Assembly: GCF_000214375.1 (NCBI RefSeq)
Contig: NC_015578.1
Span: 3,906,001 to 3,970,000, forward strand
From: Treponema primitia ZAS-2
Lineage (GTDB): Bacteria > Spirochaetota > Spirochaetia > Treponematales > Breznakiellaceae
DNA: 64,000 bases
Direction: 5' to 3'
The notes under the pieces are model-generated. The model was not told the DNA's origin. It made no database searches and was given only the letters and a program-made list of their open reading frames with translations. Below are positions 12,034-49,813 of this stretch, piece after piece; within the stretch, counting starts at the first letter, position 1, and each line of letters begins with the position of its first letter. Made by a program: the position numbers and the translations under genes.

Positions 12034-12066
12034 ATTAGTCTATCATTGGATGATAGAGAAGAAGCC

Positions 12067-12837: not shown

Positions 12838-12846
12838 AAGGAATTT

Positions 12847-15250: not shown

Positions 15251-15263
15251 GTGTTTAACTTTA

Positions 15264-16175: not shown

Positions 16176-16224
16176 GGGTTAGGGCTCCTGATAATATCAT
16201 TGTATGACATAAGATGTGTCTCCT

Positions 16225-19368: not shown

Positions 19369-19411
19369 TTCCGCGATATCTCCTTAAAGCAACAGTGAAT
19401 CTTTTTTTTGT

Positions 19412-23110: not shown

Positions 23111-23113
23111 ACA

Positions 23114-26410: not shown

Positions 26411-26528
26411 ATTAAGTGAGTATATCCTTTTTCCAGGAAAATATAAAGACGGATGAGAGCTTGAACAGCATACAGACAGTATTGTACAGTCTTTAGATGT
26501 GTAAAATAGACTCAAATAGGAGAAACAA

Positions 26529-28234: not shown

Positions 28235-28345
28235 TATTCGTGTTGAGGGGTTTAATACCCCGCCTTTAGGGCGGGGTATTAAACCCCGAATACAAATACC
28301 TTATGAGAACAACATACCTCACCCTTTAGGGCGAGGTTGTTGATT
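28235..28345. repeat. Dispersed double-hairpin element, copy 1
   Basis: This 111-base element starts TATTCGTG and ends GTTGATT on the plus strand. It has a perfect 18-base-pair hairpin (28247-28264 with 28270-28287, loop of five bases), a conserved linker CCTTATGAGAACAACATACC (28298-28317 approximately), and a second imperfect hairpin around a CCCTTTAGGG core. A related copy lies at 49862-49952. The right end runs into the transketolase C-terminal gene and supplies its last few codons and stop (TAA complement at 28326-28328). Confidence 0.7.
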
Positions 28346-30107: not shown

Positions 30108-30132
30108 ACCAGAATCCTCCTTCATATATAAT

Positions 30133-30176
30133 AACGTTTGCAAGGTAAATGTAATTCAATATTACCCATCTGTCAA
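30133..30176 (-). promoter_or_regulatory. Transketolase promoter with overlapping LacI-type operator (class A)
   Basis: On the minus strand, TTGACA (30171-30176) and TACATT (30148-30153) are 17 bases apart, a good sigma-70-type promoter. Just downstream, at the expected transcription start, is TTGCAAACGTT (30133-30143), identical to the site at the ABC-transporter promoter (35000-35010). Both promoters also share TGGGTAA after the -35 box. Confidence 0.75.
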
Positions 30177-30234
30177 TGCAATATTTAACGAAATATCACC
30201 GGACAGATTAAAAAAGGGCAAATGCGATTGGGGT

Positions 30235-30244
30235 AACGTTTGCA
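30235..30244. promoter_or_regulatory. Auxiliary LacI-type operator, class A
   Basis: AACGTTTGCA, an exact copy of the class A core, sits about 100 bases upstream of the operator at the transketolase promoter and just past the stop of the LacI gene. The pairing suggests DNA looping by a dimer of dimers, as in other LacI systems. Confidence 0.6.
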
Positions 30245-32363: not shown

Positions 32364-32399
32364 TTCCTTACCTCCAAGTAAGTTCAATATTTAAAAGCC

Positions 32400-33401: not shown

Positions 33402-33444
33402 TTCTTCTTCCTTAAATCTTGTTATAAACCGACCGACCGGCCGG

Positions 33445-34999: not shown

Positions 35000-35045
35000 T
35001 TGCAAACGTTACCAAATTATAAGAGGCACTTTACCCATTTGTCAA
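35000..35045 (-). promoter_or_regulatory. Sugar importer promoter with class A operator
   Basis: On the minus strand TTGACA (35040-35045) and TATAAT (35016-35021) are separated by 18 bases. The operator TTGCAAACGTT (35000-35010, plus strand) follows immediately after the -10 box, so bound repressor would block initiation. It is identical over 11 bases to the transketolase operator. Confidence 0.8.
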
Positions 35046-35108
35046 GCTTTTTTTTACAAATTTAATGATTATTAATGAATTTTCACTGTAAATTGACTTA
35101 TAACTGAT

Positions 35109-35118
35109 AACGTTTTCA
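35109..35118. promoter_or_regulatory. LacI-type operator, class B
   Basis: AACGTTTTCA overlaps the stop codon of the second LacI gene and lies about 65 bases upstream of the importer -35 box. It is exactly the core found at 37044-37053 and 37271-37280, so the importer may answer to both regulators. Confidence 0.6.
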
Positions 35119-36111
35119 ATTTATCCGCGCCGTTGACTCACGGATTATCAATTTATAGGGAAGAACCAGTTCCTGTTTCAATCCATTATTTCCGAGTATT
35201 GCCCGGTGCAAGGCTAAGGCGGTTTGTTCTCCCAATTCCCCCAAGGGCTGACGTACGGTAGTTAAGCGGGGGATCATATATGCCGCAATTTCAATATCAT
35301 CAAATCCCACTACCGAAACATCCTCGGGAACCCGGAGGCCCTCATCCTTCAAAACCCGCATGACCCCTATGGCTAAATCATCGGTTCCGGCAAAAATAGC
35401 GGAAAAATCCCTGTTCCGGAGCAGCAGCTCCCGCATTCCATACATACCAAATTCTGCAGTATAGTACTGGGCAGTAACCACCCGGCTCTCGTCCAGCTCT
35501 ATTCCCGCCGCTTCCAGGGCTTTATAATACCCGTCCACCCGCTGTTTGCCAAAAGTAAAACCACTGCCGCTTATCATATTGATTTTATGATGACCAAGGC
35601 CAATAAGATGATTCACTGCGTCCATTGCCGCCTGTTCCTCATCAACATGTATGGAAGGAATACCGGAAAAGCTAAAGGTTGCGGTAACCAGGGGAAGCTG
35701 TAGGTGTCTGAGGGTTTCATAAAAAGTACTATCCCTAATCTCCTGAAGCAGGATGATCCCGTCTAGCTTTTCTGACTTTAACCGGTTCAGGCATTCTTTT
35801 TCACTGGCGCCGTCAAATTTTATATAAAAAAACAGGGTATGATATCCAAAGGATTCCAGATGCCGCTCTATAATTGAAAAAAGCTGCCGCTGAAACATAT
35901 TAAAGGTATCGGGAATCACAATTCCCACGGTAAAACTGCGCTGCAGAACCATGCTTCTGGCAGCCTTATTCGGCACATACCCGGTTTCTTCTATTAACTT
36001 CAGGATTTGTTCCCGCTTTTCGGTATTTACATACTTTTTTCCGTTTACCACCCGTGAAACTGTTGAGGGAGACATTCCAACTTTTTTTGCTATATCTTTA
36101 ATACCTATCAT
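35116..36111 (-). CDS. LacI-family transcriptional regulator (paralogue 2)
   Basis: A 331-residue repressor with helix-turn-helix IGIKDIAKKVGMSPSTVSRV, hinge and sugar-sensing domain, clearly a paralogue of the protein at 30262. It is co-directional with, and 8 bases from, the IolE-like gene upstream at 36120, so it shares that gene's promoter, which carries a class B operator. That makes it the best candidate for the protein that binds AACGTTTTCA and represses both the IolE-like/lacI unit and the inositol operon. Ligand unknown; an inositol derivative is likely. Confidence 0.9.
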   Translation of the reverse strand: MIGIKDIAKKVGMSPSTVSRVVNGKKYVNTEKREQILKLIEETGYVPNKAARSMVLQRSFTVGIVIPDTFNMFQRQLFSIIERHLESFGYHTLFFYIKFDGASEKECLNRLKSEKLDGIILLQEIRDSTFYETLRHLQLPLVTATFSFSGIPSIHVDEEQAAMDAVNHLIGLGHHKINMISGSGFTFGKQRVDGYYKALEAAGIELDESRVVTAQYYTAEFGMYGMRELLLRNRDFSAIFAGTDDLAIGVMRVLKDEGLRVPEDVSVVGFDDIEIAAYMIPRLTTVRQPLGELGEQTALALHRAILGNNGLKQELVLPYKLIIRESTARIN

Positions 36112-36119
36112 CTGCTTAT

Positions 36120-36986
36120 TTATTTAACCCCTAGGTATTCAAAACTGGCTTTCAAGGCTGCGGATAATTGATCCGGAGACAATTTCTGTACCGCCGGGCC
36201 AAAGGGTTCGTAAGAGAAGGTTCCCAAATATCCCAAAGCATCCAGTCTTTGTATCAGTTCTTTATTGTGCATTTTATCCCCGGGGCCCACAAGAACACGG
36301 TTACTGTCCAGGTATTTTTCTACGGGAATATCGTCTTCAACCCCGGAAATATGTACTAACCCTGTATAGAGCAGCTCATAGGAAGCGCCCAGCCCGTCCA
36401 TGCCGAATATATGCTCATCATCCGGACCTATATAATGGTGAAAGGTATCCAAGAGCACCCGATAACAACCATAGCCCGATGCTTTGATAGCGCGGACAAT
36501 AGCCGGCAGGGACGCCAGGGAAGAGATTCCAAACCCCAGGGCTTCAACATAAGCGGCTATACCGTATTTGACAAAAAGGGGGCCATACTCTTGCAGAGCC
36601 TCTACAGTATCCAAGTACTTTTGCTTCGGAGATCGGGTATCCCCCTTATCATTATTGGGGCAAAGCACCAGGGCCGGACATTCAATGGCCGCCGCCAGAT
36701 CCAAAAGTTGTTCCAGTTCCCCAAGACAGGCGGACCGCTTAGCGGGAAGGTTGAATTTCTGCAGGGCATTAATCGTAATGAACCTAACCCCTTCTCCCCG
36801 GCTTATCCTCAGGGCTTCAGTAGGGCTTAACCCATCAATAATATCCCCTATGTTTGATTTCCCCGGCAGATCATTACGAAGCTCTATCTGAGAAAGTCCC
36901 AACCCGGCGCTAAATTTTACAAACCCTTCCAGTCCTTGGGAGGGAGAAATAATTCGGTTTAAGGCAATACGTTTCCTGGTCAACAT
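36120..36986 (-). CDS. Sugar phosphate isomerase/epimerase-like TIM barrel
   Basis: A 288-residue protein of the AP-endonuclease-2/xylose isomerase-like family, with metal-ligand motifs AAYVEALGFG, VLLDTFHHYIG, LVHISGVED and a terminal FSYEPFGP. Inosose dehydratase/isomerase (IolE, IolI), hydroxypyruvate isomerase and tagatose epimerase are all in this group. In this context it may be an inosose isomerase (IolI-like). It is the first gene of a minus-strand unit with the LacI paralogue 2 and is divergent from the inositol operon. The exact reaction is not settled. Confidence 0.75.
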   Translation of the reverse strand: MLTRKRIALNRIISPSQGLEGFVKFSAGLGLSQIELRNDLPGKSNIGDIIDGLSPTEALRISRGEGVRFITINALQKFNLPAKRSACLGELEQLLDLAAAIECPALVLCPNNDKGDTRSPKQKYLDTVEALQEYGPLFVKYGIAAYVEALGFGISSLASLPAIVRAIKASGYGCYRVLLDTFHHYIGPDDEHIFGMDGLGASYELLYTGLVHISGVEDDIPVEKYLDSNRVLVGPGDKMHNKELIQRLDALGYLGTFSYEPFGPAVQKLSPDQLSAALKASFEYLGVK

Positions 36987-37328
36987 TAACTCAGCACTCC
37001 TTTAAGTTATTTCCGACAGCCTGAAACAAAGTATCGGCATAATAACGTTTTCACATAAGTATCACATTACTATTCAAGCCTGTCAATAAAAATTACGGAA
37101 TTGCCGCAAAAATCACAGAATCATACATACAACGGATTATTAGCTTAATTTATTATATAACAACGAGTTAAGTAACCATAAGCCCCTTTATCGGTAATTA
37201 TTTAAGAAATGTAGATCGATATTATGAGAAAAGACTTTACAAATTTTAATTATGAATATATAATTATAATAACGTTTTCATATAATAGCCATACGGATTA
37301 TATGGCTATCCAAACAAGGAGCAATACC
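36987..37328. promoter_or_regulatory. Divergent control region of the two inositol units
   Basis: This 342-base AT-rich region has no gene. For the minus-strand unit, TTGACA (37081-37086) and TGATAC (37059-37064) are 16 bases apart, with operator AACGTTTTCA at 37044-37053. For the plus-strand operon, TTTACA (37236-37241) and TATAAT (37259-37264) are 17 bases apart, with the same operator at 37271-37280. In both, the operator falls at the expected start of transcription. The middle (37090-37230) shows nothing further that I can name. Confidence 0.78.
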
Positions 37329-38354
37329 ATGGCTGATAGATTAAAGATTGGAATTGTCGGAGCCGGACGGATCGGCAAGATACACATTGAGAACATTGCC
37401 CGTTTTATACCCCAGGCCAAGCTGGAAGGGTTAGCGGATATCATGCTCACCCCGGAACAGGAAGCCTGGGCCAAAGGGCTCGGCGCCCGGATCGTCTCTA
37501 AGAATCCCCAGGATCTGTTTAAGGACCCGGAAATAAACGCGGTGATCATCTGTAGTTCTACCGATACTCATGCGGACCTTACGGTTGCCGCAGCCCAGGC
37601 GGGAAAGCATATTTTCTGCGAAAAACCTATAGATTTGACCGTAAGCAAGGTTCGGGCCGCCCTGGACGCGGCAAAAAAGGCGGGGGTTAAGCTCCAGATC
37701 GGGTTTAACCGCCGGTTCGACCATAACTTTGCCCGTGTCCGGAAATACACCCTGGATGGCGCAATCGGCGATGTCCAACTGGTTAAGATCACTTCCCGGG
37801 ACCCCGCACCGCCCCCCATTGCCTATGTTAAGGTCTCCGGGGGAATATTCATGGATATGATGATCCACGATTTCGACATGGCCCGATTCCAAGCGGGCAG
37901 TGAGATCACCGAAGTGTACGCCGCAGGGGCGGTCCTGGTTGATCCGGAAATCGGCAAGGCCGGAGACATAGACACCGCCATCGTTACCCTGAAATTTGCC
38001 AACGGCGCCATCGGGGTTATCGACAATTCCCGGAAGGCCGCCTATGGCTATGACCAGCGGGTGGAAGTTTTTGGATCTAAGGGGGCTGCCCAGGCTGAAA
38101 ATGACCTGCCGAATACGGTAAAGCTGTCCAACGAAACCAGCGTCTCCGCAGAGAAACCTCTCTACTTTTTCCTAGAACGGTACAAGCAGGCCTTTGTGGA
38201 CGAGATGATTTCCTTTACTGACTCCATCCTGAACAACAAGCCTATTGCCGTAACCGGCGAAGACGGGCTGGCGAATATGTACGCTGCCCTGGCGGCGCTT
38301 AAATCGGTTAAGGAAAAACGGCCTGTTTCAATAGAAGAAATTAAGGCCCAATAA
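37329..38354 (+). CDS. iolG: Inositol 2-dehydrogenase
   Basis: A 341-residue Gfo/Idh/MocA enzyme oxidising myo-inositol to 2-keto-myo-inositol with NAD. The Rossmann motif is GIVGAGRIGKIHIENI, followed by CEKPIDLTVSKV and the catalytic GIFMDMMIHDFDMARF. The start at 37329 (MADRLKIGI) has AAGGAG upstream; the open frame to 37224 is in the promoter region and is not coding. It is first in the operon iolG-B-D-E-pgk-gap, which supports the assignment. It resembles the product at 27209 but is not identical. Confidence 0.9.
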   Translation: MADRLKIGIVGAGRIGKIHIENIARFIPQAKLEGLADIMLTPEQEAWAKGLGARIVSKNPQDLFKDPEINAVIICSSTDTHADLTVAAAQAGKHIFCEKPIDLTVSKVRAALDAAKKAGVKLQIGFNRRFDHNFARVRKYTLDGAIGDVQLVKITSRDPAPPPIAYVKVSGGIFMDMMIHDFDMARFQAGSEITEVYAAGAVLVDPEIGKAGDIDTAIVTLKFANGAIGVIDNSRKAAYGYDQRVEVFGSKGAAQAENDLPNTVKLSNETSVSAEKPLYFFLERYKQAFVDEMISFTDSILNNKPIAVTGEDGLANMYAALAALKSVKEKRPVSIEEIKAQ

Positions 38355-38378: not shown

Positions 38379-39188
38379 ATGCAAATACCGCACAAACCGC
38401 CGTTTAACCGGGGCTACACCCCCCTTTCACCCCGGGGCGGGGCTACCGCGAACATGCTCATGGATTTTGGGGTCATCAAGCTCCTGCCCGGGGACAGCTA
38501 CCAGAGCAACTCGGACACCGATGAGCGGGTCTGGCTCCTGTCGGAAGGAAGCGCAAAGATCAGCTGGGAAGGCGGAGAAAAAGAAATTTCCCGGCCCAAC
38601 CTCTTTGATTATTCTCCCTGGTGCCTTTCAGTTCCTGCAAAAAACCAGGTGACCATCAAGGCCGGCAGCGAGGGGGCTGAATTTTACTACACCGCAACGG
38701 ACAACCCCAAGCCCATCAAGCCAAAGCTCTTCACCCCCGAGGAATGTAAAAGCGAATTCCGGGGTGAAGGCACCATGCGGGAAACCTCTACCCGGGTGGT
38801 CAGAACCGTCTTTGATGACACCAACCGGCCTGAATCAAACCTGGTTATCGGAGAAGTTATCGGAGTTCCCGGAAAGTGGTCTAGCTACCCGCCCCATCAC
38901 CACCCCCAGCCGGAGATTTACCATTACCGGTTCCTCCCGGCCCATGGGTTCGGCCTGACCGCTATCGGGGACACTCCCTATATCATCAAAGACAAGGACA
39001 CTATCCTCATACGGGAAGGGGAGATACATCCCCAGGTTACCGCCCCGGGCTATGCCATGTGGTACCTTTGGGTAATACGCCACATAGAGGGCGCCCACTA
39101 CGGCCCTGCCACCAATACGCCTATATTTATAGAAGAACACAAGTGGGTAATGGGACCGCAAGACAAGATCTGGCAGCCCAAAAAATAA
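38379..39188 (+). CDS. iolB: 5-deoxy-glucuronate isomerase
   Basis: A 269-residue cupin of the IolB family, which converts 5-deoxy-D-glucuronate to 2-deoxy-5-keto-D-gluconate. The metal site is visible in YPPHHHPQPEIYHYRF, with the later histidines in EGEIHPQVTAPGYAMWYLWVIRH. Length is typical for the family. It lies 24 bases after iolG with AAGGAAGGC as ribosome-binding site, and iolD follows 26 bases downstream, consistent with a single inositol pathway transcript. Confidence 0.92.
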   Translation: MQIPHKPPFNRGYTPLSPRGGATANMLMDFGVIKLLPGDSYQSNSDTDERVWLLSEGSAKISWEGGEKEISRPNLFDYSPWCLSVPAKNQVTIKAGSEGAEFYYTATDNPKPIKPKLFTPEECKSEFRGEGTMRETSTRVVRTVFDDTNRPESNLVIGEVIGVPGKWSSYPPHHHPQPEIYHYRFLPAHGFGLTAIGDTPYIIKDKDTILIREGEIHPQVTAPGYAMWYLWVIRHIEGAHYGPATNTPIFIEEHKWVMGPQDKIWQPKK

Positions 39189-39214: not shown

Positions 39215-41092
39215 ATGAAAACAGTTCGGCTTACCATGGCTCAGGCCTTGTTGCGCTTTCTGGACAATCAGTACATTGAAGTGGACGGCGAAGAAATCAA
39301 ATACGTCCACGGGGTATTCGGCATATTCGGCCACGGCGTGGTAGTCGGCCTGGGGGAAGCCCTGGCTGCTAAAGATCACGGCCTCCGATTTTACCAGGGC
39401 AAAAACGAACAGGGCGCGGGACACGCCGCCATGGGCTTTGCCAAGCAGAACAACCGCCGCCGGATCATGGCGGTATGCAGTTCCATCGGGCCCGGCGCCC
39501 TGAACATGGTGACCGCCGCGGGAACCGCCACAGTAAACCGCATACCGGTACTGTTCCTGCCCGGCGATGCCTTTGCCTGCCGCCAGCCCGATCCGGTGCT
39601 CCAGCAGGTAGAAAGCCCCTACGATTACACCAATACTGCCAGCGACGCATTCCGCGCGGTAAGCCGCTACTGGGACCGGGTCCAGCGGCCTGAACAGCTT
39701 ATGACCGCCATGATCAACGCCTTCCGGGTACTCACGGACCCTGCGGACACCGGGGCGGTGACCGTCGCCCTTCCGCAAGACGTCCAGGGGGAAGCCTACG
39801 ACTATCCCGAAGAATTCCTCGCCAAGCGGGTCCACCACATTGAACGGCGCATCCCCACCAAAGGCCAAATCGACCGGGCCTCGGCCCTGCTCAAGGCTGC
39901 AAAAAAGCCCATGGTTATCTGCGGCGGCGGGGTGCGTTTTTCCGGCGCAGGAAAGGAGCTGGAAAATTTCTGCAAAACCTACCACATTCCCTTTGGGGAA
40001 ACCCAGGCCGGAAAGGGAACCATACTCTGGGACAACCCCTACAACCTTTCGGGGATCGGCAATACCGGCGCCCTTTCAGCGAACAGAATCGCCAAGGAAG
40101 CGGACCTGATCATCGCCGTGGGGACCCGGCTGGGGGACTTTACCACCTGCTCCAAATGGCTGTTCCAGCATCCCGATGCCCGCATCATGGGCATCAATGT
40201 TGCGTCCTTCGACGCCTATAAGATGAACGGCGAACCCATCATCGCCGATGCCAAGCTCACTTTGGAAGCCCTGACTAAGGCGGCCCCGGGCTACAAATCG
40301 ACCTGGGGCGACAGGATACAGCAGGTCCGTGATGAGTGGAAGGCAGAAGTTGACCGGCTCTACAGCGAAGACGCCGAACCCGCCCCGGATGGCTCTCCCC
40401 TGCTTTCACAGGCCCGGGTGCTCGGGGAACTGAACGATCGGCTCCTCCCTAAAGACACCATCGTCGTATCCGGCTCCGGGTCCATACCCAGCGATATGCA
40501 GCGGGTCTGGCGCGCCCGGACTGAAGATACCTACCACATGGAATATGGCTTCTCCTGTATGGGCTACGAAGTGGCCGCCGCCCTGGGGGCGAAGATCGCC
40601 TTCCCGGATAAAGAGATTGTTGCCCTTGTTGGTGACGGCGCCTACACCATGCTCCACACAGAACTATTGACTGCGGTCCAAGAAGGTAGGAAAATTATAG
40701 TAGTGGTTTTGGATAACGCCGGGTTCCACTGCATCGATAACCTCCAGCACAGCCAGGGGATAGTCCACTTCGGCAACGAATGGAAGACCCGTGACGATAA
40801 AAGTGGCCGCCTGGAGGGGGCATCGGTACAGGTGGATTACGCCAAAAACGGCGAAAGTTGGGGCGCCCTGGGCCTGCGTGCCAGAACCCCGGCGGAACTG
40901 GAGAAGGCGGTAAAGGAAGCCTTAGCTTCCAAAAAATCCGTGGTGATCGACGTGAAGACCAGTGCGAAGACCATGACCCACGGGTATGAATCCTGGTGGC
41001 GGGTAGGTACCGCCCAGGTTTCTACCAACCCTGAAGTTGAAAAGGCGGCCAAGGAAATGGCTGCAGAAGTAACTAAGGCAAGGAAATATTAG
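39215..41092 (+). CDS. iolD: 3D-(3,5/4)-trihydroxycyclohexane-1,2-dione acylhydrolase
   Basis: A 625-residue thiamine-diphosphate enzyme that opens the inositol ring. N-terminal parts (HGVFGIFGHGVVVGLGEAL, the catalytic Glu in YQGKNEQGAGHAAMGF) and the cofactor-binding GDGAYTMLHTEL-type motif are conserved. IolD differs from acetolactate synthases by these residues. The start at 39215 follows AAGGAG; the open frame runs back into iolB and is not used. The product would be 5-deoxy-glucuronate, the substrate of the preceding IolB. Confidence 0.93.
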   Translation: MKTVRLTMAQALLRFLDNQYIEVDGEEIKYVHGVFGIFGHGVVVGLGEALAAKDHGLRFYQGKNEQGAGHAAMGFAKQNNRRRIMAVCSSIGPGALNMVTAAGTATVNRIPVLFLPGDAFACRQPDPVLQQVESPYDYTNTASDAFRAVSRYWDRVQRPEQLMTAMINAFRVLTDPADTGAVTVALPQDVQGEAYDYPEEFLAKRVHHIERRIPTKGQIDRASALLKAAKKPMVICGGGVRFSGAGKELENFCKTYHIPFGETQAGKGTILWDNPYNLSGIGNTGALSANRIAKEADLIIAVGTRLGDFTTCSKWLFQHPDARIMGINVASFDAYKMNGEPIIADAKLTLEALTKAAPGYKSTWGDRIQQVRDEWKAEVDRLYSEDAEPAPDGSPLLSQARVLGELNDRLLPKDTIVVSGSGSIPSDMQRVWRARTEDTYHMEYGFSCMGYEVAAALGAKIAFPDKEIVALVGDGAYTMLHTELLTAVQEGRKIIVVVLDNAGFHCIDNLQHSQGIVHFGNEWKTRDDKSGRLEGASVQVDYAKNGESWGALGLRARTPAELEKAVKEALASKKSVVIDVKTSAKTMTHGYESWWRVGTAQVSTNPEVEKAAKEMAAEVTKARKY

Positions 41093-41101: not shown

Positions 41102-42577
41102 ATGGCAAAGGAAAAGATTGTAAAAGCAAAGTCAACAAAAGCGAAGGCTCCGGCGAAAACCGCCAAGGCCGCACCAAAAGCAAAAAAAGCGGCGCCCAAG
41201 GCGAAAGCAGCACCGAAAAAAGCAGCAAAACCCAAGGTGGCCGTAAAAGCGAAATCCGCAGTGAAGGCGAAGGCCGGGGTTAAAAAAGCGGCGCTAAAAG
41301 CGAAGGCTGTTCCGAAAAAAACAGTAAAGGTAGCAAAACCCAAAACCGTGAAAGCTAAGACGGCTGTGAAAAAAACATCCGCCAAATCCGCAGTAAAAGC
41401 TAAAGCTGTGGTGAAAGCAGCAAAACCCAAGACAACCGCAAAAGCAAAACCTACAGCGAAGGCTAAAGCCGCGGTGAAAAAAACGGTGAAAGCGGCAAAA
41501 CCCAAAACAACCGCAAAAGCAAAACCCGCAGTGAAGGCTAAGGCTGTGGTGAAAAAAACGGCCGCCAAATCCGCAGTAAAAGCTAAGACCGGGGTTAAAA
41601 AAGCCCTTGCCGTCAAACCGGCCAAGGCCGTAAAGGCCACCCCGAAACTTGCAGCAGCCAAGGCGAAGGCACCGGTAACAGCAAGGGCCGTTAAGCCGAA
41701 GATCAAACTGGCCATCGCCCCCATAGGCTGGACCAACGACGACCTTCCCGAATTGGGCGGGGATATCCCCTTTGAGCAATGCATCAGTGAAATGGCCCTG
41801 GCGGGATTCGCCGGCAGTGAAGTGGGTAACAAATACCCCAAGGACCCCAAGGTACTCAAACAAGCTCTGAAGCCCAAGAAGCTTACCATTTGTAACGCAT
41901 GGTTCAGTTCCTACCTTACCACTGCGCCCTACGAAGAAGTGGAAGCAGCGTTCATCAAACACCGGGACTTCCTCCATGCAGTGGGCGCCAAGATCATAGG
42001 CGCCGCCGAGCAGGGCCATTCCATCCAGGGCCAGGAAGCACCGATTTTCGATGCAAAACCGGTGTACACCGACGAAGAATGGAAACGCCTGACCGAAGGG
42101 CTGAACAAGCTGGGGAAACTGGCCGCGGAAAAAGGAATGAAGCTGACCTACCATCACCACATGGGAACCGGGGTCCAGACCGCCGCCGAGATTGATCGGC
42201 TTATGGAAAACACCGACCCGAATCTGGTGGGGCTCCTCTACGATACAGGCCACCTGGTATTCTCCGGGGAGGATCACCTGAGGGTCTTGAAAAAGTGGAT
42301 CAAGCGCATACGCCATGTGCATCTAAAAGACATGCGCCCGGCGATTCGGGAAAAGGCGGTCCAGGAAAAATGGTCCTTCCTCTATTCGGTTAAGTCCGGG
42401 GTCTTCACAGTGCCCGGAGACGGCTGCATAGACTTTGAGCCCATCTTCAAGATTCTGAAGGATGCAAAGTACGAAGGCTGGTGGGTTGTGGAAGCCGAAC
42501 AGGACCCTGCCAAGGCTAATCCCTTGGAATACGCCATCAAAGCCCGGAAATATATCAAGAAAGCGGGCGGAATTTAA
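41102..42577 (+). CDS. iolE: Inosose dehydratase IolE with a histone-H1-like Lys/Ala-rich N-terminal tail
   Basis: A 491-residue protein in two parts. Residues 1 to about 199 are almost entirely Lys, Ala, Pro, Val and Thr in repeats such as AKPKTTAKAKP and VKKTxAKSAVKAK, closely resembling histone H1 or bacterial H1-like (Hc1/HctA, AlgP) tails. From about residue 200 (KIKLAIAPIGWTNDDLP) to the end is a complete IolE, with the metal-ligand segments YHHHMGTGV, YDTGHLVFSG, HVHLKDMRP and VVEAEQDP. IolE removes water from 2-keto-myo-inositol. There is a GGAGG site at 41092-41096 and no stop or internal ribosome-binding site at the junction, so one polypeptide is made unless an in-frame start near 41700 is used. 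The strong net charge of the tail predicts binding to nucleic acid or acidic surfaces; its purpose is unknown. Confidence 0.9.
   Translation: MAKEKIVKAKSTKAKAPAKTAKAAPKAKKAAPKAKAAPKKAAKPKVAVKAKSAVKAKAGVKKAALKAKAVPKKTVKVAKPKTVKAKTAVKKTSAKSAVKAKAVVKAAKPKTTAKAKPTAKAKAAVKKTVKAAKPKTTAKAKPAVKAKAVVKKTAAKSAVKAKTGVKKALAVKPAKAVKATPKLAAAKAKAPVTARAVKPKIKLAIAPIGWTNDDLPELGGDIPFEQCISEMALAGFAGSEVGNKYPKDPKVLKQALKPKKLTICNAWFSSYLTTAPYEEVEAAFIKHRDFLHAVGAKIIGAAEQGHSIQGQEAPIFDAKPVYTDEEWKRLTEGLNKLGKLAAEKGMKLTYHHHMGTGVQTAAEIDRLMENTDPNLVGLLYDTGHLVFSGEDHLRVLKKWIKRIRHVHLKDMRPAIREKAVQEKWSFLYSVKSGVFTVPGDGCIDFEPIFKILKDAKYEGWWVVEAEQDPAKANPLEYAIKARKYIKKAGGI
41230..41620. repeat. Imperfect tandem repeats encoding the Lys/Ala tail of IolE
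   Basis: The DNA has degenerate tandem copies. The block AAACCCAAGACAACCGCAAA (from about 41425) recurs as AAACCCAAAACAACCGCAAA near 41500, and GCCAAATCCGCAGTAAAAGC occurs near 41383 and 41563. The copies differ mostly at third positions, which suggests old duplications kept for protein composition. The repeats also create long antisense open frames that are artefacts. Confidence 0.7.
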
Positions 42578-42579: not shown

Positions 42580-43836
42580 ATGCGCTTCGGAATAAACACC
42601 CTGGATGATATTGATGTAAAGGATAAGACCGTCCTCTGCCGGGTGGATATCAATCAGCCTGTAGACCGGGCAACCGGAACCCTGAAGGATACCACCCGTA
42701 TAGAGGCCTGTATCCCCACCCTCAAAGAACTAAACAGCAAGGGCGCCAAGCTGGTGCTCCTGGCCCACCAGGGCAGCGATATTGAGTACAAAAACTTCTA
42801 CACCACCGAACCCCATGCCAAAGCCCTGTCCAAATTCCTGGGGAAGGAAGTGAAATTCATCGACGATGTTTGCGGCCCCGCGGCCCGGGAAGCCATCAAG
42901 GCCCTCAAGTCCGGGGACATACTCCTTCTGGACAATGTACGTTTCGTATCCGAGGAACAAACCCTCTTTGAAACCAAGCTGCTCCTTTCCCACGAGGAAC
43001 AGGCAAAAACACTATTAGTGCGAAAGCTGGCACCCCTGGGGGATGTCTATGTCTGCGACGCCTTTGCTGCGGCCCACCGGGATCAGCCCAGCCTCTGCGG
43101 CTTTGAACAGCTTCTGCCCAGTGCCATGGGCCGCCTCTTTGAAGAGGAATTCTGCGTTGTCTCGGGGCTCATGGAAAAGCCGGAACGGCCCTGCGTGTTT
43201 GTCCTGGGGGGCGCCAAGATCAGTGACGCCTTCCTGATGATGAACGCGGTCCTGGGCGGCGGTTCGGCGGACAAGGTGCTAAGCGGCGGCCTGGTAGGGG
43301 AAGTACTCCTCTGGGCCGACGGCAAAGACATCGGCGAACCTGCCCGGGCTTTCATCAAAAAAGAGGGCTACGAAAACCTGGTAGAAACCGCCAAGGAACT
43401 GCTGGCAAAGTACCGGGATAAAATTGTAATGCCCACTGACTTCGCCTCAGTGGAAGCCGGAAAGCGGGTGGAATACCCCCCGGGGAAAATCCCGACGGCG
43501 GCGCTTATCCTGGACATAGGCGCAGAAACCGCCAAAAAATACCAGGAAGCCATCCGGTCCGCCAAAACCGTTTTCGTCAACGGCCCCATGGGGGTTTTTG
43601 AAGAAGCGGCTACCGAAGCTGGAACCCGCCTGGTGTGGGACGCCCTGGGGGATACGGCGGCTTATACGGTCATAGGTGGTGGCGACAGTATTACTGCCAC
43701 AAAAAAATACGGCAAGACTGCGGATATTAACTATATCTGCACCGGAGGAGGGGCGCTAATCCGTTTCCTTACCGGAGATGAATTGCCCGTGGTTAAGGCT
43801 CTGCGGCACGGATCGGGGATCAAACAGAAGAAGTAA
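42580..43836 (+). CDS. pgk: Phosphoglycerate kinase, archaeal type
   Basis: A 418-residue kinase matching the archaeal subgroup: VLCRVDINQPVDRATG, TLKDTTRIEACIPTLKEL, KLVLLAHQGSDIE, LLLDNVRFVSEEQ, CDAFAAAHRDQPS, VFVLGGAKISDAF and a C-terminal GGGDSITATKKYG that replaces the bacterial GGGDS(AV)AA. Bacterial Pgk normally has DLNVP and GRP(K)G in place of the RVDIN and AHQG seen here. It would interconvert 1,3-bisphosphoglycerate and 3-phosphoglycerate. It follows iolE within 2 bases and is followed by an archaeal-type GAPDH, so the two probably act on the triose phosphate from inositol. A normal bacterial pgk is expected elsewhere on the chromosome. Confidence 0.88.
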   Translation: MRFGINTLDDIDVKDKTVLCRVDINQPVDRATGTLKDTTRIEACIPTLKELNSKGAKLVLLAHQGSDIEYKNFYTTEPHAKALSKFLGKEVKFIDDVCGPAAREAIKALKSGDILLLDNVRFVSEEQTLFETKLLLSHEEQAKTLLVRKLAPLGDVYVCDAFAAAHRDQPSLCGFEQLLPSAMGRLFEEEFCVVSGLMEKPERPCVFVLGGAKISDAFLMMNAVLGGGSADKVLSGGLVGEVLLWADGKDIGEPARAFIKKEGYENLVETAKELLAKYRDKIVMPTDFASVEAGKRVEYPPGKIPTAALILDIGAETAKKYQEAIRSAKTVFVNGPMGVFEEAATEAGTRLVWDALGDTAAYTVIGGGDSITATKKYGKTADINYICTGGGALIRFLTGDELPVVKALRHGSGIKQKK

Positions 43837-43899
43837 CGGGATCATCCCCTGAAAAAGGCGGTGATTGTATAGTACCAACTAATTTTTAAGGAGACAGAA

Positions 43900-44928
43900 A
43901 TGGTAAAAGTCGGAGTAGCGGGATACGGAGTAATCGGGCAGCGCCTGGCGGACGGCGTGGCACTGCAAAAGGATATGGAACTGGTAGGCATCGCGGACTT
44001 GGCCCCTACCCTTTCTATTAAAGCACTTCGTGAAAAGGGTATGCCCTACGATCTGTACCTGGTCGAAGGCGCGGATAAATCCAAATTTGACGCCGCAGGG
44101 ATCCCCTACAAGGGAAGCTTCCAGGATCTGATCGGCAAGGTTGATATCATGCTGGACTCTTCCCCCGGCGGCGTGGGCGCCAAGAACAAAGAACTCTATG
44201 CAAAAGCCGGGGTCAAAGCCATTTTCCAGGGAGGCGAGAAAAACTCTGTGGCAGATGTGTTCTTCCACGGCTACGCTAACTACGAAAAGGGCTTGGGGGT
44301 CAATTATCTCAAACTCACCAGCTGTAATACTACCGGGCTCATCCGCTCAGTGGACTGCCTGGACCGGAAGTACGGCATTGACCGGGTGGCCATCACCATC
44401 ATACGCCGGGTAGCTGATCCCGGGGACTATCATCGCGGCTTAACCAACGCCCTGCAAATGGACAAGGCCCCTTCCCACCAGGCCCTGGACCTGATGACCA
44501 TCATGCCCCACATTGAAGCAACTGGTATACTAGTACACACCCCGGTTACCCACGGGCACATCATTACTGTGGTTGCCCACGCCAAAAAAGGAAAGATAAC
44601 CAAGGACATGGCTCTGGAGGCTTTTAAGACCCACAACCGCATCCGGGTAGTGACCATCGACGAAGGGTTCCTGGGGAACGCCTCCTTCTTCCGCTACGCC
44701 CGTGACCTGGGAAACCCCCGGGGTGATATGTACGAAATCGGACTCTGGGAAGACAGCATTGTTGAAAGCGGTGACAACATCATGTACGCCATCAACATTC
44801 CCCAGGAATCGGTAACCATTCCGGAAACCATGGACGGTATCAGGGCATCCCTGAAAATGCAGCCTGACTCGGCTACTGGTACCGCTGAAACCAACAAGTA
44901 TCTCGGCTTAGGCAAGTGGAAAAAGTAA
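43900..44928 (+). CDS. gap: Glyceraldehyde-3-phosphate dehydrogenase, archaeal type II
   Basis: A 342-residue enzyme of the archaeal GAPDH class, not the bacterial one. VKVGVAGYGVIGQRLADGV is the dinucleotide-binding start, and the catalytic cysteine is in KLTSCNTTGLIRSV, as in methanogen and haloarchaeal enzymes; bacterial enzymes have SCTTNCLAP. It oxidises glyceraldehyde 3-phosphate to 1,3-bisphosphoglycerate with NAD(P). With the neighbouring archaeal-type kinase it makes a paired set, likely acquired together. A GGAG site precedes the ATG. Confidence 0.88.
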   Translation: MVKVGVAGYGVIGQRLADGVALQKDMELVGIADLAPTLSIKALREKGMPYDLYLVEGADKSKFDAAGIPYKGSFQDLIGKVDIMLDSSPGGVGAKNKELYAKAGVKAIFQGGEKNSVADVFFHGYANYEKGLGVNYLKLTSCNTTGLIRSVDCLDRKYGIDRVAITIIRRVADPGDYHRGLTNALQMDKAPSHQALDLMTIMPHIEATGILVHTPVTHGHIITVVAHAKKGKITKDMALEAFKTHNRIRVVTIDEGFLGNASFFRYARDLGNPRGDMYEIGLWEDSIVESGDNIMYAINIPQESVTIPETMDGIRASLKMQPDSATGTAETNKYLGLGKWKK

Positions 44929-44982: not shown

Positions 44983-46437
44983 ATGAACATCGACCCGTCT
45001 TTAAAAGACCTTGACTCCCTGTTCCCGGCGGAATTCACCGAGGACCAGAAAGCTCAGGCAAAAACACTGTTTCTGAAAAACCTTTCCCTGGAAGCGCATC
45101 GTTTCTACGGCGGGAAGATGCAGACCGTACCCAAGTGTGGGCTCTACGGCCTTAACTGGTTCAATGTCTGGTACACCCCCGGTGTATCAAAGGTTTCTAC
45201 CAGTGTCCGGGATGACAACGACCTTTCCTTTTCCCTCTCCAACCGGGGAAACCTGGTAGCGGTGGTATCCGACTCCACCCGGGTTCTGGGAGACGGAGAC
45301 TGTACCCCCCCGGGAGGGCTGGGTGTCATGGAAGGCAAAGCCATGATTATGAAGTACCTGGGCGGTGTGGACGCGGTACCACTCTGCATTGATTCCAAAG
45401 GGGATGACGGCAAGCATGACCCGGACAAGATCATCAGCTTTGTGAAGATGGTCCAACATTCCTTCGGGGCCATAAACCTAGAAGACATCAGCCAGCCCAA
45501 CTGTTTCAAGGTTCTGGACGAACTGCGGGAAGCCTGCGATATTCCGGTATGGCACGACGATGCCCAGGGAACAGCCTGTATTACTCTGGCAGGGTTACTC
45601 AACGCACTAAAACTGGCGGGAAAAAAACTTTCCGACGCAAAGATAGTGCTCCTGGGCGCCGGGGCTGCCAATACCACTATTGCCCGGCTCATCCTGGCCG
45701 ACGGCGGGGACCCCGCAAAGATGACCGTCTTTGACTCCAAGGGCTCCCTGCACTTGGGCCGGGAAGACATCAAAAAAGACAAACGGAACTACCGGAAATG
45801 GGAAATCTGCGAAAAGACCAACCCCGGTAGGGCAGCCAATGAAGCGGAAGCCCTCAAGGGCGCAGACGTGCTCATTGCCCTGTCCACCCCCGGACCGGAC
45901 ACGGTCAAGCGAGAGTGGATCAGCTCCATGGCGAAAAAAGCCATAGTGTTTGTGTGCGCCAACCCGGTGCCGGAGATTTGGCCCTACGCGGCCAAGGAAG
46001 CCGGGGCCTTCATCGTTGCTACCGGTCGTGGTGACTTTCCCAACCAAGTGAACAACTCAGTCTGCTTCCCGGGCATCCTCAAGGGCGCACTTCTGGTGCG
46101 GGCAAAGAAGATCACCGACGGCATGGCCATACGCTGCGCCCACTCCATTGCGGACTTCTCTGAAAAGCGGGGCATTACCCCGGACAGCATCATTGCCACC
46201 ATGGAGGACACGGATGTCTTCGCCCAGGAAGCGGCGGATGTTGCCCAGCAGGCTATCAAGGAAGGGGTTGCCCGTTTGCAGCTGTCCTGGGAAGAGGTCT
46301 ACAACCAGGCAAAGGCGGACATCGCTGCCGCCCGGGCCCTGGTGGATGACATGAAGAAGCTGGGGCACATCAAAGAGCCGCCAAAAGAAATGCTGGAAGC
46401 CGCCCTGGCGAAAGCCCTGGAAGCGGTAAAGAAATAG
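44983..46437 (+). CDS. Malic enzyme (oxaloacetate-decarboxylating malate dehydrogenase)
   Basis: A 484-residue NAD(P)-dependent enzyme turning malate into pyruvate and CO2. Recognisable parts are VWYTPGVSKV, VSDSTRVLGDGDCTPPGGLGVMEGKA, the metal-binding NLEDISQPNCF and WHDDAQGTACI, and the nucleotide-binding VLLGAGAANTTIARLI. The C-terminal 60 residues, helical and Lys/Ala-rich, extend past the usual end of the short bacterial form. It is in the operon downstream of gap. Generating pyruvate and reducing power is a reasonable role, but its link with inositol breakdown is indirect. Confidence 0.9.
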   Translation: MNIDPSLKDLDSLFPAEFTEDQKAQAKTLFLKNLSLEAHRFYGGKMQTVPKCGLYGLNWFNVWYTPGVSKVSTSVRDDNDLSFSLSNRGNLVAVVSDSTRVLGDGDCTPPGGLGVMEGKAMIMKYLGGVDAVPLCIDSKGDDGKHDPDKIISFVKMVQHSFGAINLEDISQPNCFKVLDELREACDIPVWHDDAQGTACITLAGLLNALKLAGKKLSDAKIVLLGAGAANTTIARLILADGGDPAKMTVFDSKGSLHLGREDIKKDKRNYRKWEICEKTNPGRAANEAEALKGADVLIALSTPGPDTVKREWISSMAKKAIVFVCANPVPEIWPYAAKEAGAFIVATGRGDFPNQVNNSVCFPGILKGALLVRAKKITDGMAIRCAHSIADFSEKRGITPDSIIATMEDTDVFAQEAADVAQQAIKEGVARLQLSWEEVYNQAKADIAAARALVDDMKKLGHIKEPPKEMLEAALAKALEAVKK

Positions 46438-46465: not shown

Positions 46466-46527
46466 CAGGCGTACCGCCCCAGGGAACTTCCGGCGAAGAT
46501 CCCTGAGCGTACGCCTGCTTCGTTTTT
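46466..46527 (+). terminator. Terminator-like cruciform before the HIT gene
   Basis: CAGGCGTAC (46466-46474) pairs with GTACGCCTG (46509-46517); an inner stem of CAGGGA with TCCCTG lies between. TTTTT follows at 46523-46527. Another small hairpin (CTGGGGGATC with CCCCACCCAG) precedes it. It probably ends most transcription from the inositol operon. Confidence 0.7.
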
Positions 46528-46555
46528 GTTCAGTAATACTGAAAGGAGTAAAACT

Positions 46556-46969
46556 ATGAGTGATCCAAATTGCCGGTACTGTACCCGTACCACTGATATC
46601 GTAGAAATAGTGGCGGATCTGGAAGTGTCCACCCTGTATATCACCAAGGACCAGGCCTACAGGGGCCGCTGCATCCTTGCCCTAAAGGAACATAAAACCG
46701 AGGTCTTCCAACTGAGCACCGCGGAAGTTGAGGCATTCGGGCGGGATATGGCAAAGGCCTCAAAGGCCATCTACGATGCCTTCTCCCCGGACAAGATCAA
46801 CTATGCCGCCTACGGTGACGGCTATCCCCATGTGCACTTTCACCTGGTCCCCAAATACAAGGGGGGCAAATCCTGGGGAAGCCCCTTTGATCTCAGTGCC
46901 GATCCTGCCGGAGCGGTGTCCCCGGAGGAGCTTAAGGGGCTTATTGAACAGATAAAGAGCAAACTTTAA
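46556..46969 (+). CDS. HIT-family nucleotide hydrolase/transferase
   Basis: A 137-residue protein with the histidine triad HVHFHLVP (about residues 95-102). HIT proteins split AMP or similar groups from adenosine phosphoramidates, Ap4A and related nucleotides. The N-terminal CRYC pair may bind zinc as in Hint-like proteins. The start at 46556 (MSDPNCRYC) follows AAAGGAG; the frame open from 46526 lies in the terminator hairpin. It lies after the cruciform and 12 bases before the LarA-like gene. Confidence 0.88.
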   Translation: MSDPNCRYCTRTTDIVEIVADLEVSTLYITKDQAYRGRCILALKEHKTEVFQLSTAEVEAFGRDMAKASKAIYDAFSPDKINYAAYGDGYPHVHFHLVPKYKGGKSWGSPFDLSADPAGAVSPEELKGLIEQIKSKL

Positions 46970-46981: not shown

Positions 46982-48304
46982 ATGAAGATCAAAATCCCCT
47001 ACCTTAAAAAAACTTTCCCTTTGGAATTTCCCGATGAAAATCTCCTGGCCCTGGCAGAACCGAATGAATTCAAAAGCTCAGGCGCCCCGGAACAGATTCT
47101 GGAAAACGCCCTGAAAGCCCCCTACGGGCCGGATAGTTTTACTAAGAGTGGCCCCAATCCTGGGGGGCAAAAGGGACAAGGTCTTGAGGATTTTATCCGG
47201 GGGGGAAAGCGGGTGCTCGTCATTATCAACGACGCCACCCGGCCCACCCCCACGGAGGCGATTCTCAGGGGATTACTGCCGGTTTTTGAAAAGGCCGGCC
47301 TCAAGGCAGAAAACCTCACCCTCCTGGTAGCCACCGGCGCTCACCGGGGCCCCACCGACGGGGAGTACCGGCAGATACTGGGGGCATTTCACGACCAGCT
47401 CCGCAGCCGCTGTTTCCATCACGATTCCCGGAAGGACGAAGACATGGTCGACCTAGGAAGCACCCGGAACGGCACCCCCATACTGCTCAACAAGCGGCTC
47501 TTTGAAGCGGACCGGATCATTGCCACAGGAAGCGTGGAACCCCATTATTTTGCCGGCTTTACCGGGGGCCGCAAGGCTTTCCTCCCGGGGATCGCCGCCT
47601 ACAAAACCATCCAGGCCAACCACAAGCAGGCCCTCTCCGATGCGGCCTGTTCCCTGGCCCTGGAAGGAAACCCGGTCCACGAGGACATGATGGACGCCCT
47701 GCCCCTGATAAAGGCGCCGATTTTCTCTTTTATGACAGTCCTGGATAAGGAACAACAGGTAGCCGCCGCAACCACCGGGGACCTGATGGCCTCCTTTTAC
47801 GCTGCCGTTGAAATCGCCCGGAAAATCTTCTGCGTGGTCGTTCCCGCAAAGGCAGACATCGTAGTTTCGGTGGCGAAATTTCCCATGGATATAGACCTCT
47901 ACCAGTCCCAGAAAGCCATAGACAACGGCGCGGCAGCCCTGAAAGACGGGGGAACCCTGATCCTGGTTTCCTCCTGCCGGGACGGCATCGGGGACGAAGC
48001 CTACGCCAATCTCCTGGCCTCCGCCTCAAACCCCGCAGACGCCCTGGAAAAGATCCGCGCCGGCTATAAGCTGGGCTACCACAAGGCTGCAAAAATGGCT
48101 GCCGTATCCGCCCGTGCCACAGTCAAGGCCGTCACTGAGCTTCCCCCGGAGCGACTGAAAAGCATGTTTATCGAAAGCGCCCCCTCCCCCCAGGCAGCCC
48201 TGGATGAGGCCCTGGCAAAGGCAAGAGCCGGGGGGGTAAAGTCGCCGAAAATCCTGGTACTTCCCGATGGGTGCGTGACCGTGCCCGATCCTGGCCTGCT
48301 GTAA
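46982..48304 (+). CDS. larA: LarA-like nickel-pincer racemase (DUF2088)
   Basis: A 440-residue protein of the lactate racemase family. The catalytic histidine positions appear as TGAHRGPTDGEY and RCFHHDSRK, the cofactor-attaching lysine as GGRKAFLPG and a further histidine in IQANHKQAL. LarA racemises D/L-lactate using a nickel-pincer cofactor made by LarB, LarC and LarE, which are not in the window. Homologues act on other 2-hydroxyacids, so in this context the substrate might be malate, glycerate or a sugar acid. AAAGGA precedes the ATG. Confidence 0.82.
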   Translation: MKIKIPYLKKTFPLEFPDENLLALAEPNEFKSSGAPEQILENALKAPYGPDSFTKSGPNPGGQKGQGLEDFIRGGKRVLVIINDATRPTPTEAILRGLLPVFEKAGLKAENLTLLVATGAHRGPTDGEYRQILGAFHDQLRSRCFHHDSRKDEDMVDLGSTRNGTPILLNKRLFEADRIIATGSVEPHYFAGFTGGRKAFLPGIAAYKTIQANHKQALSDAACSLALEGNPVHEDMMDALPLIKAPIFSFMTVLDKEQQVAAATTGDLMASFYAAVEIARKIFCVVVPAKADIVVSVAKFPMDIDLYQSQKAIDNGAAALKDGGTLILVSSCRDGIGDEAYANLLASASNPADALEKIRAGYKLGYHKAAKMAAVSARATVKAVTELPPERLKSMFIESAPSPQAALDEALAKARAGGVKSPKILVLPDGCVTVPDPGLL

Positions 48305-48376: not shown

Positions 48377-49813
48377 CTATCCCTCGCTCTCCTCGGCAAT
48401 CTTCTTAAGCTGGTTAGTCGCTGTTTTTGGGTTGGCGTACACCATGGGACCCGCAACGCAGCCCCCGGGGCAGGCCATCACTTCCAGGATATTGCCGGTG
48501 TTGCGCCCCTCGGACCATGCCTTCATAAGGGCAATCCCCTCTTTATTAAGGCCATTGACGTACTCGGGGTGGAAATTGGCATCCCCCGGCAAGTTCCGCC
48601 GGACCGCCTCGGCTACCCCGCCGGATAAGGGGAAGCCCCGGCCGCCGGCTTTTGCGGGCCGGAGAACCGGGGCCTCCTCAGCCTGGGCAACGTCGATCCC
48701 CAGGGCAAGGAAGAGGGCGCCCAATTCTTCTGCGGTAAGAACATAATCCACCAGGGGATCATCCAGCCCCTCCTTCCGCTTCGCCAGACAGGGGCCGATA
48801 AAGACCCGGAGATGATCCGGGTGCTCCCGGGCAGCGATCTCCGCAGTATAGTGTATGGGGGTCCTGGTTTCAGAGACCCGACTTTTCAAATCCGGAATAT
48901 GCTTCTGCACGGTCTCGATATAGGCAGGGCAGCAGGAAGTGGTCATGAAGGGTTCTCCTTTCTCCATGCGTTCGGTAAATTCCAGGGCTTCGTTTTTGGC
49001 GGTGATGTCTGCACCCAAGGCAACTTCATATACCTCGTCAAACCCCGCCTGCTTCAGAGCTCCCAGAAGTTTTCCGATGGACGCCCGGAACTGTCCCGCC
49101 ACCGCCGGGGCAAAGAGGGCGGAGATTTTCTTTCCCCTCTTTTTTGCCATGAGCACATCCAGGATCTGGGACTTGTCCATCATTGCTCCAAAGGGGCATT
49201 CCCGCATACAATTGCCGCAGAAGATGCATTTATTGTAATCGATCCGTTCCTTACCGGCTTCGTTCTTGGAAATGGCCCCTACTGGGCAGGCTTCCTCGCA
49301 GGGGACGGGGATTTTTATGATCGCGTGGTAGGGACAAACCTGCTGACAAATACCGCAGTTGATACATTTGGTTTTATCGATCCCTGCGTGGCCTTCGTTC
49401 ATAGAAACCGCTTTTTTAGGGCAGTTGAGGAGGCAAGGCCGGGCAAGGCAGCCCTGGCAGGCATTGGTGATCAGAAACTGGGCCTTGACACAGGCGTTGC
49501 AGGCTTCATCCAGTACCGTGAGGACCGGCCCTGAAATGGCGGTCCGTTCCAGGGCCTTTTTTGCGTGAAGGGCAAGGGCAGTACCGTCATCCTCATAGTC
49601 TTCCACGGAAAAACCCAGCCGCGCCAAGATACGGATCTTGAGGATCACCCGGTCATGAAACACGCAGCAGCGTATGGGCTGGTAGTTTGGATCCGATGTC
49701 ATTTGATAGGGGATCCGGTCTATACCATCCTCAAGCTTATCCTCAAAAAAGAGCTTTATCAGGGATACCAGCAGGTTGCGCTTTATCAATAAGGCATTGT
49801 TATTATAATGCAC
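48377..49813 (-). CDS. [FeFe]-hydrogenase-like protein (group B-like)
   Basis: A 478-residue iron-sulfur protein. It has an N-terminal domain of about 110 residues, cysteine clusters CQGCLARPC, then ferredoxin sites CINCGICQQVCP (150-161) and CIFCGNCMRECP (196-207), and H-cluster motifs TTSCCPAY (291-298), GPCLAKRKEG and MACPGGCVAGP. The second motif (GPCLAKRKE) and the Tyr after TSCCPA place it near the group B hydrogenases, not the catalytic HydA group A enzymes. No maturase genes are nearby. It would handle H2 in fermentation or sense it. A ribosome-binding site of the AGGAGAAA type precedes the ATG, within a region bounded by the second double-hairpin element. Confidence 0.82.
   Translation of the reverse strand: MHYNNNALLIKRNLLVSLIKLFFEDKLEDGIDRIPYQMTSDPNYQPIRCCVFHDRVILKIRILARLGFSVEDYEDDGTALALHAKKALERTAISGPVLTVLDEACNACVKAQFLITNACQGCLARPCLLNCPKKAVSMNEGHAGIDKTKCINCGICQQVCPYHAIIKIPVPCEEACPVGAISKNEAGKERIDYNKCIFCGNCMRECPFGAMMDKSQILDVLMAKKRGKKISALFAPAVAGQFRASIGKLLGALKQAGFDEVYEVALGADITAKNEALEFTERMEKGEPFMTTSCCPAYIETVQKHIPDLKSRVSETRTPIHYTAEIAAREHPDHLRVFIGPCLAKRKEGLDDPLVDYVLTAEELGALFLALGIDVAQAEEAPVLRPAKAGGRGFPLSGGVAEAVRRNLPGDANFHPEYVNGLNKEGIALMKAWSEGRNTGNILEVMACPGGCVAGPMVYANPKTATNQLKKIAEESEG

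Follow-up and report, generated by a model that had tools for sequence, protein, structure and literature searches.

An archaeal-type phosphoglycerate kinase and type II GAPDH pair in an inositol operon of Treponema primitia as a candidate for the energy-conserving step of an alternative myo-inositol route

The window analysed here is a stretch of 64,000 nucleotides from Treponema primitia ZAS-2 (NC_015578.1, positions 3,906,001 to 3,970,000), and its subject is two adjacent genes, pgkA and gapII, that encode paralogues of phosphoglycerate kinase (PGK) and glyceraldehyde-3-phosphate dehydrogenase (GAPDH); pgkA starts 2 bases past the stop of iolE. The open reading frame (ORF) of pgkA, 418 amino acids long, matches the Pfam PGK family (E=2e-117, 393 bits vs a cut-off of 27) and carries the motifs CRVDINQPVD and LLAHQGSD. 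The ORF of gapII, with 342 amino acids, scores above both NCBIfam cut-offs for type II GAPDH (NF003251, 394 vs 185 bits; TIGR01546, 294 vs 233 bits) and carries the motif LTSCNTTGLIR. These motifs and family scores bear out a preliminary description of the stretch, which had noted archaeal-subgroup motifs in both proteins and held them not to be of the bacterial type; its statement that the pair is adjacent, directly follows iolE and is a dedicated part of an inositol operon is likewise correct. The nearest solved structure to PgkA is Pyrococcus 2CUN, and the solved relatives of GapII are four archaeal type II enzymes only. The genes that concern the proposed pathway are the following (positions in the window).

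37224 to 38354, plus strand: iolG (TIGR04380, 474 bits, above cut-off; likely start at the ATG near 37329)
38379 to 39188, plus strand: iolB (PF04962, KduI/IolB, above cut-off; TIGR04378 100 vs 205 bits, under cut-off)
39215 to 41092, plus strand: iolD (TIGR04377, 906 bits, above cut-off; the frame is open upstream to 39059, with the start probably near 39215)
41102 to 42577, plus strand: iolE (TIGR04379, above cut-off from residue 200 on)
42580 to 43836, plus strand: pgkA, archaeal-type PGK paralogue (PF00162), putative D-malyl-phosphate:ADP phosphotransferase
43900 to 44928, plus strand: gapII, type II GAPDH paralogue (NF003251, TIGR01546), putative phosphorylating D-malate-semialdehyde dehydrogenase, probably NAD-type
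44983 to 46437, plus strand: malic enzyme (Malic_M and malic domains, Pfam, above cut-off)
46982 to 48304, plus strand: larA, LarA-family nickel-pincer racemase, putative malate racemase (best NCBIfam model LarAH6 malate racemase)
28326 to 29276, minus strand: transketolase C-terminal subunit, predicted to cleave 2-deoxy-5-keto-gluconate (Transket_pyr and Transketolase_C; best NCBIfam model transketolase)
29280 to 30143, minus strand: transketolase N-terminal subunit, binding thiamine pyrophosphate (TPP) (Transketolase_N; best NCBIfam model transketolase)

The upper inositol pathway is thus represented by iolG, iolD and iolE, which pass their NCBIfam cut-offs, and by iolB, which passes the Pfam cut-off only. 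The transketolase is of the two-subunit type, with Transketolase_N and Transket_pyr/Transketolase_C on adjoining genes. A search for bacterial-type pgk and gap elsewhere in the genome, suggested in the preliminary description, found exactly one further copy of each on the single contig of 4,059,867 bp, adjacent to one another and of the bacterial type (C1:1750309-1752169); the pair in the window is therefore not the housekeeping copy. Housekeeping pgk and gap are both present in 15 of the 16 genomes examined.

Ten GapII sequences, used as queries against 84,980 species genomes, brought up at least 529 relatives, of which the best 80 were read with their neighbours; 50 of these loci have 5 kb or more on either side of gapII, while 30 have less than 5 kb on one side. 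The 80 relatives come from Spirochaetota, Bacillota, Chloroflexota, Synergistota and metagenome-assembled genomes labelled Planctomycetaceae (Planctomycetota). gapII has pgkA as its direct neighbour in 75 of the 80 loci, and the neighbourhood includes the transketolase gene tktN in 43, larA in 52, a malic enzyme gene in 31 and iolD, iolE or iolB in 44; the corresponding counts among the 50 full-flank loci are 49, 31, 37, 21 and 33. The order gapII-pgkA-tktN-tktC-larA-malic-iolE-iolB-iolD occurs as a single run in loci L108, L110, L112, L113, L115, L087 and L093. Elsewhere the same genes are arranged differently: iolG-iolB-iolD-iolE-gapII-pgkA-tktN-tktC-larA in Flexilinea flocculi (L138), gapII-pgkA-larA-malic-tktN-tktC in L050 and tktN-tktC-gapII-pgkA in L058, and in genome G370 the transketolase accompanies the iol genes and gapII-pgkA-larA-malic occupies a separate site. 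The core of this recurrent cluster is gapII with pgkA, and its partners are iolGBDE, a two-subunit transketolase, a LarA-type malate racemase and a malic enzyme.

The classical route of inositol breakdown, of the Bacillus subtilis type, proceeds through IolG, IolE, IolD, IolB, IolC, IolJ and IolA, and in it 2-deoxy-5-keto-D-gluconate (DKG) is phosphorylated and then undergoes aldol cleavage. Two genes of its lower half, iolC and iolA, are largely missing from the cluster-carrying genomes. In the window genome no iolC (TIGR04382) scores above cut-off (best 105 vs 300 bits), and there is no iolA, the only two ORFs of the aldehyde dehydrogenase type having the sizes of AdhE and ProA. Among 31 cluster-carrying genomes of several phyla, iolC is above cut-off in none and IolA ((methyl)malonate-semialdehyde dehydrogenase) in two; the iolC model does recognise the genes of B. 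subtilis, Caulobacter and Corynebacterium, which served as controls. No IolJ stood out among the ORFs listed for L115 and L138; no family search for it was made. Of 393 Spirochaetota genomes, 22 have iolD, and 9 of these carry a type II GAPDH vs 6 of the 371 that lack iolD (p=4e-9). None of the genomes with gapII, whether or not they have iolD, has iolC; among the iolD genomes the counts for iolC are none of the nine with gapII vs 6 of the 13 without it (p=0.023, one-sided). Both p-values are indicative only, as related genomes are not independent. In G374, a genome with iolC, the iol cluster is of the ordinary kind, its iolC kinase gene lying between iolB and iolD, and the other genes of the gapII-pgkA cluster are absent. 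Other spirochaetes with iolD have neither type II GAPDH nor iolC above cut-off (G310 (L139), G255 (L140), G361 (L141), G292 (L142), G334, G024 (L146) and G144); these may break down inositol by a further, different lower route, or their pathways may be incomplete.

For the residues of GapII, the four solved archaeal enzymes were compared with 91-92 GapII sequences (window numbering, archaeal residue first). The catalytic Cys142 (SCNTT) and His220 are kept, while three His residues that are invariant in the archaeal enzymes, namely the second His of SHH, the second His of MHxH and the His of VHQES, are replaced throughout (H194Q, H222I and H301P, each in 92/92 sequences), as is an archaeal-invariant Lys at the cofactor strand (K33D, 91/91). 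These conserved changes fit an altered substrate, and the exchange of Lys33 for Asp would fit the use of NAD over NADP. PgkA retains Asp23, Asn25, Arg38, His62, Arg122 and Arg170, and position 65 is occupied by S, D or G in 88/88 sequences. In PGK, Arg65, Arg122 and Arg170 bind the 3-phosphate (PMC7729029). We considered the loss of Arg65 as a decisive sign of a changed PgkA substrate and dropped it, since Asp also occupies this position in the housekeeping PGK of the window genome; the PGK residues are thus not decisive. Most bacterial PGKs read SHLGRP here; that housekeeping PGK (G000 C1:1750952-1752169) has SHLGDP and an insertion, as is also seen in G290.

We propose that GapII and PgkA carry out the energy-conserving step in an alternative lower pathway for myo-inositol, a reading to which we assign a probability of about three in four. 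Every catalytic step from DKG on is one that we infer from what is seen directly, that is, from gene content, clustering, co-occurrence, a DNA motif common to the operons (see below), the absence of iolC and iolA and the altered residues, together with the structures of the metabolites. IolG, IolE, IolD and IolB would lead to DKG as usual. DKG (CH2OH-CO-CHOH-CHOH-CH2-COO-) would match D-xylulose 5-phosphate in skeleton and in stereochemistry (as derived from the Fischer projection of D-gluconate), with CH2-COO- standing for CH2-OPO3. In place of IolC, IolJ and IolA, the two-subunit transketolase would move C5-C6 of DKG to a sugar phosphate, the C2 units entering the pentose phosphate pathway, and would release D-malate semialdehyde, the carboxylate isostere of D-glyceraldehyde 3-phosphate. 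From this aldehyde, GapII would form NADH and D-malyl phosphate (isostere of 1,3-bisphosphoglycerate), consuming inorganic phosphate and NAD, and PgkA would pass the phosphate to ADP, generating ATP and D-malate (isostere of 3-phosphoglycerate). Because malic enzyme takes the L isomer and not the predicted D-malate, a racemase would be expected ahead of it: LarA would turn D-malate into L-malate, from which malic enzyme would form pyruvate, CO2 and NADH. In the open-access literature we found no description of an inositol route by way of a DKG transketolase and malate semialdehyde, and subscription journals may hold one. That this is an undescribed and widespread anaerobic inositol route through D-malate semialdehyde and D-malyl phosphate, in which transketolase, GAPDH and PGK paralogues act on carboxylate isosteres, and in which the GAPDH/PGK module also serves other sources of aldehyde, is a broader claim that we hold to be probable, with slightly less confidence.

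Several observations outside the inositol genes are consistent with D-malate as the product. The nearest solved relative of the window LarA is the malate racemase Mar2 (6d6z), the His-Lys pair of which is kept; the Lys that binds the second carboxylate of the substrate in Mar2 (PMC11770544) is conserved as well, LGYHKAA in the window protein aligning to LGAHKAA. The LarA proteins of the sister clusters L050 and L087 score 604 and 568 bits, above the cut-off of 500 bits of the LarAH6 malate racemase model (NF052593). In L051 and L053 (8109-11742), where larA and malic enzyme were not seen, gapII adjoins a gene of the tartrate/D-malate dehydrogenase family (TIGR02089, 469.8 and 440.4 bits, respectively, vs a cut-off of 470.4). 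The L051 stretch (8335-16390) also contains a γ-aminobutyrate (GABA)-type aminotransferase and two MttB methyltransferases, a gene set that fits a carnitine-like source of the same aldehyde and a possible anaerobic carnitine or betaine route. The conversion of L-carnitine through malic semialdehyde and D-malate to pyruvate has been proven experimentally in Acinetobacter, where an aldehyde dehydrogenase is used (PMC11353897). The dehydrogenase beside gapII in L055 was tried as a further D-malate dehydrogenase and rejected, as it is a LeuB above cut-off. In two more loci (L074, 2668-11026; L126, 5185-14772) the E1, E2 and E3 components of a complex of the pyruvate dehydrogenase (PDH)/acetoin dehydrogenase type lie directly upstream of gapII-pgkA-larA(-malic), and no two-subunit transketolase is present in the stretches read. 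PDH-type complexes include the acetoin dehydrogenases, which are likewise acyloin-cleaving TPP enzymes.

Some of the findings weigh against the proposed route. The window LarA reaches only 399 bits with NF052593, and the window IolB is also under its NCBIfam cut-off. Divergent PfkB kinases, scoring at most 105 bits in the window genome and 228 bits in the others, could replace IolC. PgkA keeps most of the ligands of 3-phosphoglycerate. In the Clostridia loci L084, L089, L096 and L105, gapII-pgkA stands without any iol, larA, malic enzyme or transketolase partner, and for a few genomes no transketolase was found besides that of the cluster, which may also serve the pentose phosphate pathway.

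The preliminary description had taken the pair for a lower-glycolysis step for triose phosphate from inositol, and GapII and PgkA could indeed be ordinary glycolytic isoenzymes that speed the oxidation of dihydroxyacetone phosphate (DHAP) and triose phosphate after the IolC-IolJ route. The location of the genes within the iol operon would suit such isoenzymes, as would the conserved catalytic Cys and His of GAPDH and the conservation of most substrate residues of PGK, but a cluster whose 31 genomes have no iolC above cut-off, and usually no iolA, would not make DHAP by the classical route, and nearly all of the genomes examined for housekeeping pgk and gap already possess them. Moreover, the regular presence of transketolase, malate racemase and malic enzyme points to a four-carbon acid rather than triose phosphate; glycolytic isoenzymes account neither for these three enzymes in the same operons nor for the uniform changes in GapII. 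The triose phosphate role is not supported, and we consider isoenzymes unlikely. The scarcity of iolA in the cluster genomes would also be explained if GapII and PgkA replaced IolA by acting on malonate semialdehyde from the classical route, yielding malonyl phosphate and then malonate and ATP. However, iolC, on which that route depends, is missing too; malonate semialdehyde lacks the 2-hydroxyl bound by the Asp and Asn of PGK (PMC7729029), residues that PgkA keeps; and the transketolase, racemase and malic enzyme are left unexplained. We judge this reading weaker than that of D-malate semialdehyde, and very improbable. A similarly small chance is given to a module for another 2-hydroxy aldehyde acid with the shape of malate semialdehyde, for instance one derived from a different sugar acid, with inositol as one of several uses: 17 of the 50 full-flank loci have no iol genes, and a PDH-type complex (L074, L126) or an aminotransferase with MttB (L051) may lie nearby, but iolD, iolE or iolB adjoin the module in the other 33, and a malate-type racemase and malic enzyme recur both with and without iol.

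The origin of the pair is a separate matter. The preliminary description had suggested joint acquisition from an archaeon, with a termite-gut methanogen as a plausible donor, and the fact that the closest solved relatives are archaeal would suit a recent joint transfer of pgk and gap into this spirochaete, whatever their function. GapII, however, shares 64-92% identity with its bacterial relatives, which span five phyla, vs 35.8-42.2% with the enzymes of Methanothermus, Methanocaldococcus, Sulfolobus and Pyrococcus. In the phylogenies that the preliminary description had called for, with an archaeal sampling of four GAPDHs and one PGK, the core GapII sequences form one clade (approximate likelihood ratio test, SH-aLRT, 99), and so do the PgkA sequences (97), which are separate from the housekeeping PGKs (100) and comprise two deep bacterial subgroups. 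Both window proteins group with those of other Treponema inside bacterial clades; their nearest relatives are not archaeal, nor are they nested in an archaeal clade. The assignment to archaeal-type subfamilies thus stands, a recent acquisition from an archaeon is not supported, and a recent methanogen donor is highly improbable. Both families may have an old archaeal origin.

The remaining features of the locus are listed below. An 11-base motif, TAACGTTTKCA, has six copies in the 64 kb vs 0.08 expected, all of them within the control regions of the transketolase, transporter and iol-pgk-gap operons, and at least one copy precedes iolG also in the related loci L049, L052, L062 and L066. This common motif would tie the transketolase by regulation to the pgk-gap operon.

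27209 to 28222, minus strand: second inositol 2-dehydrogenase, iolG paralogue (TIGR04380, 372 bits, above cut-off)
30132 to 30142, plus strand: operator-like motif TAACGTTTKCA
30234 to 30244, plus strand: operator-like motif, before the transketolase operon
30262 to 31290, minus strand: LacI-family regulator
31374 to 34965, minus strand: ribose/inositol-type ATP-binding cassette (ABC) transporter, with binding protein, permease and ATPase (best matches NCBIfam ribose/xylose ABC models, under cut-off)
35001 to 35011, minus strand: operator-like motif, before the ABC transporter operon
35108 to 35118, plus strand: operator-like motif, lying between lacI and the transporter operon and extending into the final bases of the lacI frame
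35116 to 36111, minus strand: LacI-family regulator
36120 to 36986, minus strand: xylose-isomerase-like TIM barrel protein (PF01261)
37043 to 37053, plus strand: operator-like motif, before iolG
37270 to 37280, plus strand: operator-like motif, directly before the likely iolG start
46526 to 46969, plus strand: HIT-domain protein between malic enzyme and larA (PF01230, barely above cut-off)

IolE has an N-terminal tail of ~195 residues (41102-41690), rich in Lys and Ala (66 Lys, 62 Ala) and histone H1-like; the tail is ~75 residues long in L062 and ~20 in L069, and most other relatives are without it. Further away, three successive very large proteins (1047, 1232 and 1133 amino acids) are encoded on the minus strand at 16225-26515, possibly a defence-type/NTPase cluster, and an iron-only hydrogenase-like protein with ferredoxin motifs (48377-49813) is directly convergent with larA.

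Inositol and phytate are common in the guts of plant-eating animals, and the many genomes with iolGBDE and without iolC are hard to explain. If the proposed route is correct, it would supply the missing lower half for these genomes, provide a GAPDH/PGK pair that forms ATP from a non-phosphorylated substrate and give a role to malate racemases of unassigned purpose. The functions annotated for type II GAPDH and PGK in bacteria are then probably wrong, and the two proteins are most likely second-hand glycolytic parts in a pathway of many gut and anaerobic bacteria.

The proposed route shares its first four enzymes and the intermediate DKG with the classical iol pathway, in which IolC and IolA then act and DHAP, malonate semialdehyde and acetyl-CoA are produced; here transketolase, GapII, PgkA, malate racemase and malic enzyme would take over, with D-malate and C2 units as predicted products. 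Cleavage of a non-phosphorylated acidic ketose by a transketolase (SqwGH), with C2 units passing to the pentose phosphate pathway, is known from the sulfo-TK pathway of sulfoquinovose (PMC9594981), the substrate of which is a sulfonate; the text of that review mentions neither GAPDH nor phosphoglycerate kinase, and thus describes no phosphorylating oxidation of the remaining aldehyde by such homologues. LarAH6/Mar2 malate racemase (PMC7583248, PMC11770544) is the nearest solved relative of the window LarA and has the same His-Lys pair at the pocket for the substrate side chain, whereas the window copy is under the family cut-off; searched for these terms, the texts of both papers give no link to inositol, transketolase or phosphoglycerate. 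The archaeal type II GAPDH and PGK (Pyrococcus 2CZC and 2CUN) agree with GapII and PgkA in family, in fold by homology and in the catalytic Cys and His, and differ in that here conserved His residues and the Lys of the nucleotide strand are replaced and the genes belong to an inositol-catabolic operon of bacteria with housekeeping copies. The carnitine route of Acinetobacter (PMC11353897) has in common with the proposed one the sequence from malic semialdehyde through D-malate to pyruvate, but its aldehyde dehydrogenase works without ATP formation, whereas the phosphorylating GAPDH/PGK pair proposed here would save one ATP.

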